Shown here one piece after another: positions 12,944 to 56,429 of a stretch of 64,000 nucleotides of DNA. Every line of letters begins with the position of its first letter. The stretch's first letter is position 1. The notes beneath the pieces were generated by a model, which saw only the letters and a program-made list of their open reading frames with translations, was not told the origin of the DNA and made no database searches. The translations under genes were made by a program, and so were the position numbers. This DNA is from Parelaphostrongylus tenuis (lineage: Eukaryota > Nematoda > Chromadorea > Rhabditida > Metastrongylidae). The stretch spans positions 124,001 to 188,000 of the forward strand of contig JAHQIW010000389.1 in NCBI GenBank assembly GCA_019055375.1, given 5' to 3'.

Positions 12944-13732
12944 GTTGAGAACCAGAGAACCTACCAAGCGTATTTGGCCCCACCCCTGGCCTCGCCTCCA
13001 CCAATCACGTCCATCCTTGGACGGATGATCGCGATAGCGATAGGGATGGAAGTGATAGTGACAGTGATGATAGAGATAGTGATCATAATGATGGTGGCGG
13101 GTTAGTGATAGTGATAGTGATGATAGTGGTATGATAATAGTGACAGTGATCATAGTGTTAGTGGTAGCAGTGGTAGTAATTACAGTGATCGTAATGACAG
13201 TGACGGTGGTGTGTCGCCACTATCACTTTGATCACTATCACTATCGCCACTATCAGTATGATCACTATCACTATCACTTCCCCACTAGCACTTTAATCAC
13301 TATCATCACTATCACTACCGTCACTATCATTATGATCACTGTCATCATTATCAATACCACCACTAGCACTATGCTCACTATAACTACCGCCACTAGCACT
13401 ATGATCACTATCATCACTATCACTATCTTACTCACTACCGTCACTATCACTATAATCACTATGATCAGTATCACTTCCGCCACTAGCACTATGGTCACTA
13501 TCATCACTATCACTATCGTCACTAACATTATGATCACTATCATCACTATCACTACCCGCCACTATCACTATGATTACTATCATCACGGTCACTACTGCCA
13601 CTATCACTATGGTTACTATCACGACCACTATCATCCCATCACTATCGCGATCATCTATCAAAAGACGGATGTGATTGATGGGGCCGGGCCAGTGGTGGAG
13701 CCAGACACGCCTGGTGGGTCCTGTGGTTGTCA
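12944..13732. mobile_element. Fold-back element with strand-switching minisatellite core
   Basis: Arms 12944-13055 and 13630-13732 are imperfect inverted copies (shared CCACC..TGGC, CAATCAC.TCC, GATGATCGCGATAG blocks). The core is GATAGTGAT-type repeat up to ~13215 and then switches to CACTATCACTAT-type repeat to ~13655. The long frames here encode only Ser-Asp or Ile-Thr-Val repeats and are not genes. Confidence 0.75.
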
Positions 13733-32000: not shown

Positions 32001-35000
32001 GTTTTCTGCTGGGGTTATGGAGGTTTTTGGCTTAGTGGAGTGTGGATCAATGTTATCTTTTCAGACTCTGACGAAGACGACCCGCCGAAACGTTAGCCAC
32101 CTCAGATATTGTATATTCAAACTGCATTACTGACTGTATTGTTGTATGCTTCGCTAATATTCAATAAATAATATCAATAACACCTTGGAACGGCTAAACA
32201 GAAGGAACTATGAATTCCGACAACCGAATATCAGTTAACATCTGCATTAATCGATATCCCACACTTTCCCTTGCAACAGATACGACACCCCTATGATACA
32301 ACTCATTCAAACATCTGAAGTTTCAGCAATTTCACCTTCTTTAGAGTTTGAAAAGACTAAATTGTCCAAAACACAGTAAGTCAAACACCACATCACTTCT
32401 TCAATTCTTTCGGGACCATGGACCCAATTCTCTGCGCCTCCAGCCCTCAGCGTGTCATTGTTAGATGCAGCACGCTGAGGGTTATAGATGCAGAGGGTTG
32501 AATCCATGGTCGCGAAAGTGCTAAGAAAAATCACCAAATCTAAATTTTTTTCTAAGATACGGAGTGGCCCATTTGCACTTTAATGTAGGAGGTGCTCATG
32601 TGATCTCTCCACGGTGCTTCTCCATATGAAGAACTCAGTGAACGACTCATGAAACGAAGGGTATTTGAAAACTGATTTAAGCTCGATTCGATTGGAACCT
32701 AGATTTGGCGATTTTTTTTCTGTTGAAGTAAAGGAAGTATTTGACTGAAAGAGCTGGAGGCAACCTGATTTCTTCAGTTCTGAAGAAGGCGAAACAGCCG
32801 AAACGTCAGATTTCAGAATGAATCGTGTTAGAAAACCTTATGTTTAACTTAAAAGGAGATATAAGTGATACATCCATGATGAATGTCATGGTAACGTTTT
32901 ATTCAAAAAAAAAAAAGATTTGGACGGTGAAAAATGATGTGGAGATGATCCGCACCGAATGCGATTCATGAAGAATTGGAGAAGATTAACAAAATTTTGG
33001 AGTCAATTTTTTTACTTCACCATTAAGTCTAAGTCTAACTTAGTTTTGTTTCGCATATCCAATTTTCCTTCTTTTTCTACTACTATTTTCTATTAATACA
33101 CAATTTTCTCCCACTTCTGTTTTGTCATAATTTGAAGTGAAAAGCTAAGACAACTGGAACGATGCTCTAAGAAAGAAAACAAACTAGGAAACACTCGATA
33201 CAACGATTCGATAAGGGTGCTAGTTGATCGCTGTGCGCGTTCGTTATTTGACCAAAGTACTGTTTTCCATTTCGAAGGACAAACTCAGATCTTTCTTTCC
33301 CCTGCTTGGATTTTCCGCCGAACAGAACATAAAATTCCAGTTTTTATGCGATAGCCTGAGAAAAGGAGATTTCAACACTGTACTTGGCTTTCACATAGGT
33401 CTTCTAAGTTTGTTGTAGCAGCAAAAAAATTTTTCTCGGCTTGTGTTTTATGCTTGACTGGTGCCTGTGCTTTGCTTTTCAGGAAACTTAAAACTCATTT
33501 AGTAGTTTGTATCTCGTTGAATCTGAGCCTGAGTTTGGTACTGAAAAGCGCCATCATAGATCAAAAAGCGTTACACTCTACCTATATGCGCTATAACATC
33601 TCTATTTGGTCGTTCCCAAGTTTTGGCACTAGAGTAATAAACACCATATTTATTAACTAAAAGTAGTCAAAATTGCATGGTTTTGGAATCATACGATTGC
33701 ACACTTTCTTACATATATTTTGGTGCACAAACTGTCTTTACTCAAAGATGCAGCTGTTCTGGAAACAAATTCCCTTGTTACTCATGCATGAATGGCGCGT
33801 AGGGGGAAATAGTACTGAAGCGGTGCGTAAGATTAATGGAGCTTAGGGCGATTTTACGGTTGCAGAAAGGACGGTTAGGAAGTGCTTCGCAAAGTTCAAA
33901 CTCGGAGAGCACAATCTGGAAGATCAGTCGCGCTCGGGTCGTCCATAGGAAGCTTCAGTGCTTCAATGTCTATTGCTTGAGTGTCAAAACTTATGAAATG
34001 ACCTAACAGAGCTAATATGGCATACATGGTTCGAGTGAGAAACGTTCTATGAAAACCCTTCTGAATATCAAACCCAGTTCCAGAATCGATGAGATTTAAA
34101 CTATCAGATGAGTTCTAACAGTCTTGTGAAAAGCGAAGCACAACGTCAGCTGAGCATAAAACGCAAACCGAAAAAACAGTATTCTTTCTGCTACTGCAGC
34201 TTACTTAGGGAGCTTTATAGAAAACAAGCACAACGTTGAAATCGTCTTTTCTCAGGTTATCGAATTACTACCAGAATTTAGTGCATTGTTCGGTGAAAAA
34301 TGTAAATGGAAACATGGGTGTATTCATTGATTACACGCCGCCCTCAAAAAATTAACAACGATCGCATAACCTTTTATGGCATTTAAAGACTTTCAAAGAA
34401 GAAGGCAATAATGATATAAACACATCGACTTAGACGTACCTGATTTTCTAACTCGCCTAGAATTTCCAACTGAATATTTTCATCAGCCGATTCCAGAGCT
34501 TTCTGTATAACACGACATCCATACATTTGCAGTGCGAGATTTGTTACTTCTCCTTTCAAAGCGCGACCAAGGGCCGCCCTCTGTTCTCGGGTTCCATATT
34601 CGAAAAATTTCTGGAAAATAGACAGCAGCCTGCCAGTCGTAGCAAGAAAAGGCACATGTATGATAAATACTGTAACAAGAAGCGACTTTACCTGTACCAC
34701 ATAATTACCAAAGACATCGACCATTAAGATATGAGCATTGTTCAAAACTTCATCAAAAAGCAATTGTTTTTCTTTCGTTGATGCTCGTTCAAGTTTTTGT
34801 TGTATAAATCTGTAATAAATGGTTGAAAAGTACCGATTCTGAATTATAGATGGACAACCTAGTGTGCATCTACAATTTTCCTCTCACTGGAACAAACGAT
34901 CATAACACCACCTTGTTGGAAACTTCAGCTACCTTTTTCGCCCTTTTCCAGCACAATCAATTTAGAGCGACATGGCTCACTAAAACCCATTTCAGTATAT

Positions 35001-38000
35001 ACAAATAGGCTGAGAGGCTGAATAAAAGCTTTTGTGAGAAAATTATACTATGAATTTCTGCTACAAGCGCATGTAATACAATAGTTAGAGGCGCGCAGCG
35101 ACACACACTAGTCGATAAGTCGACGGTACCATCCCGCGCTCAAGGCTCACCAAGAAATCCATCCCTCCGGGGTCGGTGAATTGATAGCGGACTTGTCTGG
35201 AAAGACAGCAGCACTGACCTGATAAATCGGCAGGCCACTGCAAGTCACTGTAAAGACCTGATATGCCTTCGACCAAGTATAACGATTTTTGATTAAGTCG
35301 AATGCAAGGCGCATCCCTCAGGGATTGTTCAACGCCAAGACTTTTATGCTTTTATCTTTTTTCATTGCCACTGCACTTCTAGGTACACCTCTCAAATGCG
35401 TAAAGTCTTGGAAAATTGCAAATTTAGAAAAATGCTGGTTCTTTTCAATTCCAAAGAGATACACACTGCGATTTTGAAAATTTCGAAAACCATGAATTCT
35501 ATTATGGCTACACATGTTTGATCGACCTTGAAGCAATAGGACAAAGATAACTTCTCTCTAGGAAATCTTATCGAATTTTGTCCTGATCGGAAGCATAGTA
35601 TCTTATAGGACAACTGAATTTGGAACCACAAAAGTCTACAAAGGATTTGGTTCCCAGGTTTCCATTTGCCTAGTCGTTACACATCAAGGACCAAAGCACT
35701 AAGCTCTTGGCGCCTATGAATCCCAGCGAGACTCTCCACAAATTCGTCCCTATCAATCACTGCACTGGCGTGATGGCAGTGCAAGGTGACGTGTGAGGTG
35801 ACTGAACTCATAACTGGCCTTGCAATGACTAGCGGTGGCTTGCTGATGTATCAGATCAGCGCTGTCAGCATCCCAAACAAGTTTGATACAACTGTATGTC
35901 AAGTGAAAATATCACCGAGCTTACAGTGCTTTACACTCGATTGCTCTTTGACTGGTATTTCATATTATTATACCTTTATTTCGAGTGTTTTCTCAAACCC
36001 ACGCTCGAATTTCAATAGATCCCTTCATTACAGTTTGAGCCAACATGTCATGTGGTCTGGTAAAGGCTCTTGTACAGTCCGATACACGTGACTCGATCCT
36101 ACAATCTCGTCACTCGGGCAGAACCCGTCGTCTTTCACTCCTTTTATGAGCTAATCCTCTCGGGAGCCTGCTTTCCCTAACAAGTGGCATTGAAGGAAGA
36201 CGAACGATTTACACTGTATATCAAGTGAAAATATCACCTAACTTACAGTGTTTTACACTCGATTGCTCTTTGGCTGGTATTTCTATAATATTATACCCTT
36301 ATTTCGAAATGAGGAAAGGATAGGTTTCGAATGCCCCTTCCACGCTCAACGAAACGACAATCTCCGAATGCTCCAGTTACGTCTATCTAAGTTGTTAAAC
36401 CAACATGATAAACGACCTAGCTCCAGAGTTGAGCAGGAGGAAACGAGCGGCTTGGGGAACGTTTAGGAGCATCGAAGATGTAGTGGTGAGGACAAAGAAC
36501 ATCCGACTCCGTGTCCACCTTTTCGACTCGACAATCTTCCCTGCCCTAACGTATGCAGCAGAAACGTGGTCGCTACGTAAGCAGGATGAAAGATCACTTG
36601 GCGTTATCGAACGCGCAGTCGAAAGGTCGATACTAGGAGTATCTCGTATTTCGCAAATGAGACAAAGGATCCGAACTTCCGACCTACGTCAACGATCGAA
36701 AATCAGAGACGCCGTTCTACACGCCAGGATATCGAAAATAAGGTGGGCCGGACACGAGATGCGCTTCAACGACAACCGATGGACGAGAGCCGTTACCGAC
36801 TGGATTCCTCGGGACGTCAAGCGGTCTAAAGGAAGACCGCTGACCCGTTAATCCGATTTCTTTACGAAAGCGATAGAAGAAAGATACGATGTTCAGCGAA
36901 TCCCTAGAGCGAGGAGGACTCACTGGGCTACTCTTGCACGCGATAGGGAAAAATGGAAGAGCTGCTGGTACCGGCTCGAGTCACTCGCCGATCAAATGGA
37001 CAACAGGTGATACGACAGGTGACAGGTGATTTCGAAAGTTTTTCTAAGAAATTTGAGCGTGGTCTTAAAAAAACACTCGAAATAAAGGTATAATAATTTG
37101 AAAATACCAGCCAAAGAGCAATCAAGTGTACAACAGTGTTAGTTCGTTGATATTTTCACTTGACATACAGTGCAAATCGTTCGTCTTCGAGAACTCTCTG
37201 TAAGGAGTGCAGGCTCCCGAGAGGATGAGCCCATAAAAAGAGTGAGAGACGACGGGTTCTGCCCGATTGACGAGACTGTAAGGTCGAAACACGAGGCTGT
37301 ACAGGAGCGTTTAACAGACTACATGACATGTTGGCTCAGTCAACAATGAAGGAATCTATTGAAATTTCAGCGTGGTTTCGAGAGAACATTAGAAATAAAA
37401 GTATAAAACAGTGTCTCTTTGACTTGCCGAGATCCATGTTGATCTTTAGCAAATTCCACTACATGCGACAGAATATCGGCTATCTGTAGATGTGGAGTTC
37501 GATTATTGCGGAAATCATCCAAAAGAAAACTTCGATTCTGCTGCCTAAATCGGAACATCGGTCATCAAAGAAAAACATAAATTAAAGAATAAAGCAGATA
37601 ATCTAAGTGAAGCAAAAAAAACCTTGGACTATTGTCGTCGGCTCGACGCCTGCCATGACAAGCTCCGCCACCACCACCACCACTATAGTGATTGATATTC
37701 GACGACTGTGTTGGCGGACTGAACATTGACATTCCTGCATTGTTATACCCATGGACAGCCCCCATTCCTGGATCGAGAGGTGGTGGCCCTGGCATTGGTG
37801 GAATTCCGCCAGCTAAAAGAAGCCCAGTTAACATATCCTCTTTCTCTAGGAATAATTTACTCTTCCTGGAGACAACTAAACATCACAAACGACGATATCA
37901 CTGCAAGGAAGATAATGCAGAACACATTTTAAAGATCGATTATTGATTTTTATACCGACTATTAGTAGCGCGCGAGTGGCTTAGTGAAGAGAGGTGTTCT

Positions 38001-47695: not shown

Positions 47696-47837
47696 CGTCA
47701 AAAGGTCATATCGAGTACAACAAGGATGGGGCCGCTTGGCTAACCGACTGACTGACTATTTGATGATTCTGTCTGCGGTCTGTGTAAAGGAACACATCAA
47801 AGACGACTTGAGAACGATGACGATGACGATGGCTCGG

Positions 47838-48060
47838 CGTAGATCGTAAGTAATTCGGCGTAGATCATGGGTGACCTAGTGTAGAGCATATGCCACTCAG
47901 TAAATCATAGGTAACCCACATCAAATGATAGGTAACTCAGCGTAAATCATAGGTAGTCTAGTGTAGTTCTTAGGTAACCCAGCCTAGACCATAGGTAACC
48001 CAGGGTAGACCATAGGTAATCCAGCGTCAATCATGGGTAACCCAGCGTGGATCATGAATA
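47838..48060 (+). repeat. Minisatellite, ~21-23 bp unit, about ten copies
   Basis: Imperfect tandem copies of a GTAGATCATAGGTAACCCAG-like unit. Confidence 0.8.
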
Positions 48061-52768: not shown

Positions 52769-53872
52769 GTCAATATTGAAAAAGATAAACCAACTTCGCG
52801 AAAGCCTTTACTAGTGATTAGTTCTCAGAGTATCCTAGTAGTATTTGGCCGATGGTCGTAAGAAATTTTAGTCTGAGATCGCTGAGCTGAAGTTAATAGG
52901 ACTTTTCTGGCTAAGATTTCAGCCTTTTTTCATAAGAAGTATGAATTATTCAGGCTCGTTTTTGAAATCATGGTTCATTGTAAGATTTGACTTTTGATCT
53001 GCAAGGGTTAAGACAAAAGCTGCTGATAAGAGATCTATGTCGAAATCGTTAGAGCACTGAAAATCTCTTGTGTTTTCATTGTAGACAGTTGAGCGGCCAC
53101 AACATCCTAAAACAGCAAGTGAAAAATTTCATGGGAGGGAAACTTCAGTTTCTAAAAAATACTTGTGTCACATCGTGTCTATCAATTTTACCTGCATCAG
53201 TAAATGTCTGAGAAATTATAGAATAGGAATGTTCGCCTATAAATTCTTGAGATGATAGTTGAAATTCAGAGCATTCTTTTTTTACGCTGTGAATGAATAA
53301 AAGAGTTTGAATATTCAACAAAATATTCTGTTTGTTCCATGACGTTCATGATACTTAATACAACCACAGTGGTGTCACAAGCTCAAAGAGTGTTTCGAAG
53401 AAATGACAGTGCTTGGATACCGTTTTATTTAGTGCAAAATCCATTTCTAGGTGTAACTTGAAATTGATAGTACAGTGGAAAAAAAATTCTTTTCTCATTT
53501 TCTCTTTTTGCTTACTGAAGCCGAATTCATGGTGGCCCTGAACAAATTGGAAAGTTGTTGTGGATGAAAATGAGAGGAAAACTGGAGATTGTTTTGTCAT
53601 TCAAAAGGTTTATCGGTGCTAATCTTGCTGCTAACAGTTTTATTAGTGAAAAAGTATGTTATTGTTCCATCAAAATTTCCAGTTGTGTAGATATAATGCC
53701 TCCGTATAACGCTGCGCTATCATTTTATTGTATTAGATTAATTTATTGATAATGATCTGTTTTAAACAGTCACTACGAGATGCTGCAATAGCTTGGTTCA
53801 AACGCAATGTTCTTAATTGCAATAAGAACAATTCAAAATTGCATGTTTTTGTTTGAAAGATACTAATTCATT

Positions 53873-53942
53873 CAAAAAAAAAGAATGATTTAAGCTCAAA
53901 AAAGGGGTTGGTAAGCCCAGGGTCATACACCGGTGTTTCGGA
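53873..53942 (-). repeat. Inverted partial retrozyme unit at the array's left end
   Basis: Reverse complement of the unit segment from the ribozyme GAAA through stem III, stem I 3' strand and the T-rich stretch. It abuts the target duplication on the left and the direct array on the right. Inverted 5' fragments like this are common at Penelope-type insertions (family knowledge). Confidence 0.85.
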
Positions 53943-54136
53943 TGTCATTCTTTTTTTTGGAATTATATTGAATGTTTTTTGGGGGTTTCAAAAACAGTCG
54001 ATCTTTTGATATAGTTTTGATCTAACAGCAAAAATCTATCGACTGAGAGGTGGTGATGGTACAGTGTCATAGTACACTGTGCCATCACCACATACGCCAC
54101 CCTCCTTGCTTCAATGCAGGGCTGAATGTGGGGCGG

Positions 54137-54184
54137 GGGTCACTGATGAGGAGGACGAACCTCCGAAACACCGGTGTATGACCC
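54137..54184 (+). ncRNA. Type I hammerhead ribozyme, array unit 1
   Basis: Stem I GGGTCA (54137-54142) pairs with TGACCC (54179-54184). Core CTGATGA at 54143-54149. Stem II GGAGG/CCTCC closes a 5-nt loop (54150-54164). GAAA at 54165-54168. Stem III is the palindrome ACACCGGTGT (54168-54177), foldable as ACA/TGT. H17 is A54178, so predicted cleavage lies between 54178 and 54179. Every conserved core base is present. A short palindromic stem III is typical of animal satellite and retrozyme hammerheads that work best as dimers. Confidence 0.92.
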
Positions 54185-54407
54185 TGGGCTTACCAACCCC
54201 TTTTTTGAGCTTAAATCATTCTTTTTTTTGGAATTATATTGAATGTTTTTTGGGGGTTTCAAAAACAGTCGATCTTTTGATATAGTTTTGATCTAACAGC
54301 AAAAATCTATCGACTGAGAGGTGGTGATGGTACAGTGTCATAGTACACTGTGCCATCACCACATACGCCACCCTCCTTGCTTCAATGCAGGGCTGAATGT
54401 GGGGCGG

Positions 54408-54455
54408 GGGTCACTGATGAGGAGGACGAACCTCCGAAACACCGGTGTATGACCC
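54408..54455 (+). ncRNA. Type I hammerhead ribozyme, array unit 2
   Basis: Identical to the unit 1 ribozyme; core CTGATGA at 54414-54420, 271 bp downstream. All stems and core residues intact. Confidence 0.92.
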
Positions 54456-54678
54456 TGGGCTTACCAACCCCTTTTTTGAGCTTAAATCATTCTTTTTTTT
54501 GGAATTATATTGAATGTTTTTTGGGGGTTTCAAAAACAGTCGATCTTTTGATATAGTTTTGATCTAACAGCAAAAATCTATCGACTGAGAGGTGGTGATG
54601 GTACAGTGTCATAGTACACTGTGCCATCACCACATACGCCACCCTCCTTGCTTCAATGCAGGGCTGAATGTGGGGCGG

Positions 54679-54726
54679 GGGTCACTGATGAGGAGGACGA
54701 ACCTCCGAAACACCGGTGTATGACCC
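54679..54726 (+). ncRNA. Type I hammerhead ribozyme, array unit 3
   Basis: Core CTGATGA at 54685-54691. Stems I, II and III intact; one G is lost just beyond stem I (CCCTGGC for CCCTGGGC). Confidence 0.91.
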
Positions 54727-54947
54727 TGGCTTACCAACCCCTTTTTTGAGCTTAAATCATTCTTTTTTTGGAATTATATTGAATGTTTTTTGGGGGTTTC
54801 AAAAACAGTCGATCTTTTGATATAGTTTTGATCTAACAGCAAAAATCTATCGACTGAGAGATGGTGATGGTACAGTGTCATAGTACACTGTGCCATCACC
54901 ACATACGCCACCCTCCTTGCTTCAATGCAGGGCTGAATGTGGGGCGG

Positions 54948-54995
54948 GGGTCACTGATGAGGAGGACGAACCTCCGAAACACCGGTGTATGACCC
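54948..54995 (+). ncRNA. Type I hammerhead ribozyme, array unit 4
   Basis: Core CTGATGA at 54954-54960; ribozyme sequence intact. This unit has one G-to-A change at the edge of the upstream hairpin (GAGATGGTGATGG). Confidence 0.92.
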
Positions 54996-55218
54996 TGGGC
55001 TTACCAACCCCTTTTTTGAGCTTAAATCACTCTTTTTTTTGGAATTATATTGAATGTTTTTTGGGGGTTTCAAAAACAGTCGATCTTTTGATATAGTTTT
55101 GATCTAACAGCAAAAATCTATCGACTGAGAGGTGGTGATGGTACAGTGTCATAGTACACTGTGCCATCACCACATACGCCACCCTCCTTGCTTCAATGCA
55201 GGGCTGAATGTGGGGCGG

Positions 55219-55266
55219 GGGTCACTGATGAGGAGGACGAACCTCCGAAACACCGGTGTATGACCC
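55219..55266 (+). ncRNA. Type I hammerhead ribozyme, array unit 5
   Basis: Core CTGATGA at 55225-55231; all stems intact. The array ends about 100 bp downstream, within a partial sixth unit. Confidence 0.92.
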
Positions 55267-56429
55267 TGGGCTTACCAACCCCTTTTTTGAGCTTAAATCA
55301 CTCTTTTTTTTGGAATTATATTGAATGTTTTTTGGGGGTTTCAAAAACAGTCGATCTTTTGATATACTAATTCATTATTCTTATGACCTAATATTCTAAA
55401 ACTTTATTACCGGCAGATTCTTCCAGAGAATTGTGGGAACGGTTTTGCTTGGTAAACAATTATTTCTTGAGGAATTTTTTAAAATGACTGACGAGTTGTA
55501 GACTGCCTGGAATGAGGTCCGTTAACCCTTTCGGGACCGCGTGTTCTTCCCATGGTGTACGCGAATTTTCGTGATTTTCTCGTCAACTATAGGCTTCTCA
55601 TCAAACTTTAAATATTCACTCGATAGCTGAAAAAGTCACGGCTCTGACGGTATCTTTGGCTTTTAAGAATGTTTTTTTCAGTGATCTGTAGCAAAGAAGA
55701 GAAAATCGCGTTTTTCTCTTCGGAGTGAACAGTGTGATTTGCACTCGTGTTCACGTTGTCTTTTCACAGAGCAAAGGTTTTTCACCAAAGTTCTAGTAAT
55801 CTTTCTATAGCTTGAGAAATAATGACTCTAAATATATACTTAGTTCTCGAACTGAATAGCAAATGTAGGTTTTTTAAGCGCTGTGAAAACGATTAACAAA
55901 AACTGCATTTCGCTTCCGGAGTGGGATTAGCTTTCACACTCTAAGTGAACATCTAGTCTCTTGAAGTTCGCAGTTGGTCTTATGGTGATTATATAGTAAA
56001 ATTCGTACCCTAGAGACATTTTATGATCATAGAGAATGATGTGATACTCGAGGCTTTCTTCAAAAGTCTTTCTTAGTAAAAAAGAAATTTTACGTGTTTT
56101 AAAAATTCCCACGTTTCAAATACCAAGATAACATCAAAGGGAAAATAGCGCATCTCCATTTCTTCTTATTTTTTCACAATATGCAACAGTGCGATCACTA
56201 GCAGTTCACCCTAAATATCGCTACCGGTCAACATTCACCCGCGTTGCATAGATATTTGCTTGTTACAATCAACAAATGCGTTTTATATCAACCAAGATCG
56301 AATCCTAAAATAATCAGTTCTCGGTTCATTATTGTCTTGGTACTCCGTGATTTCCTTTTCTTCAGCAAATACGAGATTTTTAATACAAGTTTATTTTATA
56401 CAAAGTAGTACAATAGAGATCGTATCCGT

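Follow-up and report, generated by a model that had tools for sequence, protein, structure and literature searches.

The window analysed here, which is the whole stretch of DNA at its full length of 64 kb, carries on its forward strand a tandem array with five hammerhead motifs, preceded by a short inverted fragment and bracketed by two copies of a direct duplication. The features are listed below with their strand (where one applies) and the means by which each was located.

53860..53872, no strand: left copy of the 13-bp target-site duplication ATACTAATTCATT (repeat search, junction analysis)
53875..53942, minus strand: inverted 5′ fragment, exact over 68 nt (circular placement against the unit, inverted repeats)
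53945..55366, plus strand: tandem array, 5.25 copies of a 271-bp unit (TRF, unit alignment, length)
54050..54091, plus strand: hairpin with 18-nt arms and a 6-nt loop; it occurs five times, this being the first copy, and one copy has 17-nt arms (inverted-repeat search)
54136..54185, plus strand: hammerhead motif 1, predicted cut 54178/54179 (descriptor)
54407..54456, plus strand: hammerhead motif 2, predicted cut 54449/54450 (descriptor)
54678..54727, plus strand: hammerhead motif 3, predicted cut 54720/54721 (descriptor)
54947..54996, plus strand: hammerhead motif 4, predicted cut 54989/54990 (descriptor)
55218..55267, plus strand: hammerhead motif 5, predicted cut 55260/55261 (descriptor)
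55364..55376, no strand: right copy of the 13-bp target-site duplication (repeat search, junction analysis)

The array was recovered by TRF with a period of 271, 5.3 copies and 99% matches, and its length of 1422 bases corresponds to 5.25 copies of the unit. The five predicted cut sites divide it into a left partial copy of 234 bp, four complete cut-to-cut units of 271, 271, 269 and 271 bp, and a right partial copy that stops at unit position 106. The preliminary description of this locus had counted five 271-bp units; there are indeed five hammerheads and 5.25 copies, but only four of the units are complete, and one of these measures 269 bp. Complete units 1 and 2 are identical, while the third (54721-54989) shows three private differences from the other units: the loss of one G from a run of three, the loss of one T from a run of eight, and a G-to-A change that cuts the arms of its hairpin from 18 to 17 nt. 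In the alignment the lost G is spread over neighbouring columns, and a single loss is its simplest reading. One-base losses in homopolymers are a common long-read error, and the two in this unit may be sequencing errors. A further difference, T-to-C at unit position 41, is common to the fourth complete unit and the right partial copy, such that this position is C in the two 3′-most copies and T in the other four as well as in the inverted piece. The unit has a G+C content of 44%, and the longest reading frame in the array spans 71 codons, with no frame for a reverse transcriptase or a GIY-YIG endonuclease. An LTR layout could not be made out by eye in the array, and within the 64-kb window nothing beyond 12-nt matches to the unit was found outside it.

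Structurally, a hammerhead is defined by the sequences CUGANGA and GAA, an A15.1-U16.1 pair, a residue other than G at H17, and three helices arranged around the core, and all of these are present in each of the five motifs. The motifs are complete type I hammerheads on the plus strand and are letter-identical to one another over 50 nt. Stem I is an open helix with six Watson-Crick pairs and one G-U pair, and it leads into the core sequence CTGATGA, a 5-bp stem II closed by the 5-nt loop ACGAA, and then GAA. Stem III is short and lies inside the 10-nt palindrome ACACCGGTGT, where A15.1-U16.1 is joined by two more pairs to make up the helix, and H17 is A. The anatomy that had been described earlier, from CTGATGA and the 5-bp stem II to GAA, the palindromic stem III and H17 = A, was thus recovered in all five copies. 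A strict structural descriptor matched only these positions in the 64-kb window (five on the plus strand, none on the minus strand), while in 150 first-order Markov sequences of 64 kb, searched on both strands, it matched once and its loose version six times. No hammerhead arose when the unit was shuffled 20,000 times with its dinucleotides preserved and the products, treated as circles, were searched on both strands. The five descriptor matches and the empty shuffles support the earlier naming of the array as retrozyme-like. A viroid-like agent with hammerheads on both strands was also considered, and was ruled out because the minus strand carries no such motif.

The Rfam covariance search, set beforehand as a check on the preliminary description, went against it. 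Across the whole 64-kb window, no family reached its gathering score, and a permissive scan of the array region (1,701 bases) gave 28 matches, none of them a hammerhead and all far below cut-off, with a best E-value of 0.051. When a 101-base stretch holding one copy was scanned, four matches were returned, all below cut-off, and these included RAGATH-1-hammerhead (15.6 bits against a cut-off of 56.3, E 1.4) and Hammerhead_3 (14.4 bits against 48.5, E 0.94). The type I hammerhead model is absent from this output, in which only the best overlapping match per clan is kept, and it may have been outranked within its clan or have had no match. We take the scores below cut-off to reflect limited sensitivity of the models to motifs whose helix III is very short; the failed threshold counts against the assignment, although for us the intact catalytic anatomy weighs more heavily.

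Folding predictions describe an RNA that pairs extensively with itself. The linear unit reaches −97.4 kcal/mol, compared with a mean of −71.5 kcal/mol for its shuffles (z −5.28), none of 200 being as good. When the unit is modelled as a circle with the hammerhead forced, the predicted structure lies 2.4 kcal/mol above the minimum, and the gap is equal in all four complete units. These models suggest a trait that is typical of retrozymes, namely a highly self-paired RNA in which the hammerhead is left free to form. For the minimal 50-nt motif, the hammerhead fold has −15.6 kcal/mol against a minimum of −18.0 kcal/mol and an ensemble frequency of 0.003, while the stem III palindrome self-pairs between two hammerheads over 10 bp at −16.9 kcal/mol. 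Because the palindrome can pair in this manner and the minimal motif prefers another fold, the active form is likely to be a dimer of two neighbouring copies, as the models and the analogy with amphibian motifs suggest; axolotl motifs have been shown to act as dimers, and the same is reported for newts (PMC7229834).

The borders of the block preserve what appears to be an insertion scar. All 13 bp of ATACTAATTCATT stand without mismatch at both 53860-53872 and 55364-55376, and the sequence is found at no other place in the window. The first three letters of its right copy (ATA) double as the end of the array, so the unambiguous duplication is 10 bp, in agreement with the earlier figure of 10-13 bp. 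The block opens, as had been noted, with an inverted fragment, whose 68 exactly matching nucleotides correspond to sense unit positions 255-271 followed by 1-51. Since this fragment spans the predicted cleavage site, the junction would have been either uncut or re-joined in the template. Two unmatched letters follow, and the forward array then starts at unit position 38; at the left junction the letters ATTC are common to target and unit, beyond one mismatch. These features fit target-primed reverse transcription with a 5′ inversion, and the duplication, the inverted piece and the shared junction letters together point, at the level of sequence, to insertion of the block in a single event. The earlier statement that the block moved as a unit is borne out to that extent by the 13-bp duplication that flanks it and the 68-nt inverted piece at its start. 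A cut-and-paste transposon was rejected because the termini of the block are not inverted copies of one another, agreeing at 10 of 30 letters. The insertion had also been called recent, a view that would be favoured by the intact duplication and by how little the units differ, and we regard the array as a real and probably young retrozyme-type insertion.

Elsewhere in the window, a frame of 150 codons at 36399-36848 (feature 36399-36851, plus strand) encodes a remnant of an endonuclease-reverse transcriptase, the only reverse-transcriptase remnant identified there. It is 95% identical to a protein of the metastrongylid nematode Parelaphostrongylus tenuis, and the remaining relatives among the best 120 of 753 matches, the window's own protein apart, are 62-78% identical. 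Those that are named among these best 120 are nematodes, for example Angiostrongylus, Necator, Haemonchus and Ancylostoma. The remnant places the contig in Nematoda, in line with the attribution of this DNA to a nematode in the preliminary description. We take the remnant to be probably of the RTE type, and this class of element is thus a candidate donor of the enzyme for the array. An exon-like frame with Pumilio-family RNA-binding repeats lies at 34383-34883 (minus strand), and a comparison of six frames of the window with Pfam gave Pumilio repeats only. Two further repeats are a CACTAT-rich minisatellite at 13222-13621 (period 39 bp, 10.3 copies) and an array at 47837-48055 (period 21 bp, 10.5 copies, 70% matches). 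No tRNA gene was found in the window, and a search with loose patterns gave no internal Pol III boxes. A scan for promoters and terminators of the bacterial type gave promoter-like matches that recur with the unit and are not meaningful in an animal.

Relatives of the unit were sought in several collections. Exact motif patterns had no match in viral or genome contigs from collections of viruses, bacteria and archaea, the unit had no match in phage records, and two of its translated frames had none among 5.8 billion proteins, nematode proteins included, where the frames of a non-coding unit need not be called as genes. This absence says little, because the DNA searched is viral, bacterial and archaeal, by the descriptions of the collections, which may omit records close to the window's own genome, and because the unit is non-coding. 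The hosts of retrozymes named in the text seen of PMC7229834 are cnidarians, molluscs, rotifers, platyhelminths, annelids, crustaceans, insects “among others”, and amphibians. The string “nematod” is absent from the main texts of PMC7229834, PMC7761336, PMC6155905 and PMC3088659; it occurs six times in PMC8490949, with no hammerhead of a nematode at any of the places shown, and the passages shown of PMC11620745 name nematodes for HDV-like ribozymes and not for hammerheads. No natural nematode hammerhead appears in the portions consulted of PMC7761336, PMC6155905, PMC8490949, PMC11620745 and PMC3653858, or among the listed titles and abstracts of the literature that joins hammerheads with retrozymes, Penelope elements or strongylids. 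Such absence, from a search of openly available main texts and passages, is weak evidence. Engineered hammerhead switches in the nematode Strongyloides stercoralis are the subject of a 2025 paper (PMC12711028).

Taken together, we consider it highly probable that the array of five type I hammerheads is a non-coding, non-autonomous retrozyme, and that it was inserted when a hammerhead RNA, multimeric or circular, underwent target-primed reverse transcription. The array would be transcribed into RNA, and adjacent hammerheads would cleave the transcript, probably best as dimers joined by the 10-nt palindrome of stem III. A host ligase may then circularise the resulting monomers of ~271 nt, a step proposed here by analogy. 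Copying of the RNA at a nicked target would fall to a reverse transcriptase acting in trans, supplied by an RTE-type LINE or a Penelope-like element, and the inverted piece could have been made by further priming on the opposite strand of the target. Such twin priming is known from LINE-1. It had been stated earlier that no protein is needed; this can hold for cleavage alone, whereas insertion by reverse transcription would require an enzyme in trans. For animal retrozymes in general, the integration route is proposed and not shown (PMC7229834).

The form of the template can be weighed from the scar and the unit variants. A contiguous template fits both the inverted piece and the array, with the two cDNAs overlapping by 14 nt (unit positions 38-51). 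One variant of the retrozyme explanation, compatible with it, holds that a single monomeric RNA circle was copied for more than five rounds; it is the route proposed for metazoan retrozymes (PMC7229834), and the constant unit and the closed cleavage junction crossed by the inverted piece agree with it. Repeated reading of such a circle would, however, give identical copies, and the variant at position 41 speaks against the circle as the sole template: the two copies that would be made first carry C, all others carry T, as does the inverted piece, and one such circle could not produce this pattern without later exchange between copies. We hold the monomeric circle to be a possible template, though one with the odds somewhat against it. 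To account for the position-41 pattern, the template must have been a multimer whose units differed, or copies must have exchanged sequence once inserted. A bolder reading would see in this locus the first retrozyme of the Nematoda, and in its scar a hammerhead concatemer, not a single circle, that entered the nick by twin-primed target-primed reverse transcription; we put this forward tentatively and with considerable doubt. If true, animal retrozymes can move as unprocessed multimers that bring their array structure along.

Explanations in which the array is no retrozyme insertion fare less well. Were it ordinary satellite DNA, amplified at the DNA level by unequal exchange or rolling-circle replication with the hammerhead as a relic or passenger, its tandem order would be expected, and local exchange would yield a variant common to two neighbouring copies; yet the perfect target duplication, the inverted 5′ piece and the letters shared at both junctions indicate a single insertion, and the catalytic cores are intact in all five motifs, which makes this explanation improbable. 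Penelope-like elements carry type I hammerheads in tandem (PMC11167929, PMC7761336), and two short fragments labelled as Penelope, 227 bp in total, are recorded for the nematode Rotylenchulus reniformis (PMC7960049), so that the block might be a piece of an autonomous element of this kind, with repeated, hammerhead-bearing pseudo-LTRs. Against this, all frames of the array are at most 71 codons long, and the hammerheads of these elements are described as minimal, lacking helix III or the loop-loop contacts (PMC7761336), while those of the array have a short helix III; such an origin is very unlikely. Least probable of all, and barely credible, is that the array arose in assembly through collapse or expansion of copies. 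The units are near-identical, and of the three changes private to the third complete unit, two are losses of a single base within G and T runs, but the flanks are unique, the duplication is perfect at both ends, and the units are distinct from one another. The copy number of the array may still be wrong in the assembly.

The retrozyme reading gives this locus a wider bearing. It makes the integration step testable, as the scar and the unit variants bear on both the form of the template and the source of the enzyme. If the RNA is active, circular RNA made by ribozymes would extend to roundworms, and Rfam cut-offs could miss motifs of this kind.

The closest known kind of element is the metazoan non-LTR retrozyme, as described by Cervera and de la Pena in 2020 (PMC7229834). 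In common with these, the array has a type I hammerhead in tandem repeats within the range of 150-450 bp (its period being 271), a G+C content below 50% (44%), no recognisable gene and no LTR organisation, a target duplication of more than 4 bp (13 bp perfect, 10 bp unambiguous), and a highly self-paired unit (PMC7229834). It also has the short helix III under a tetraloop that is found in invertebrate retrozymes, of which those from mussels are without most of the canonical tertiary contacts between loops 1 and 2 (PMC7229834). It departs from the metazoan elements in its host, as nematodes are not among the phyla named in the portion of that paper seen, and in its 5′ inversion, the word “inverted” being absent from the main text of PMC7229834; unlike them, it is known from DNA sequence alone. 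Metazoan retrozymes are further marked by many dispersed genomic copies, abundant monomer RNA in linear and circular form, and Penelope-like elements in the same genome; the 64-kb window holds one array. Other systems share part of this profile. The type I hammerhead and the tandem order recall Penelope-like elements, from which the array differs by having a helix III and by having no reverse transcriptase or endonuclease frame (PMC11167929, PMC7761336). Plant LTR retrozymes are likewise non-autonomous, produce hammerhead RNA and are likely mobilised in trans, but they have an LTR organisation, a type III hammerhead and a target duplication of 4 bp, in contrast to the type I motif, the absence of LTRs and the 10-13 bp duplication seen here (PMC7229834, PMC7761336). 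Finally, the satellite hammerheads of newts and axolotls resemble those of the array in their weak helix III and palindromic tetraloop, for which a dimer is expected to be the better catalyst; their units are longer (330-350 bp compared with 271 bp) and their hosts are vertebrates, and where the newt-type hammerhead has a stem III of a single pair, the array combines A15.1-U16.1 with two more (PMC7229834).
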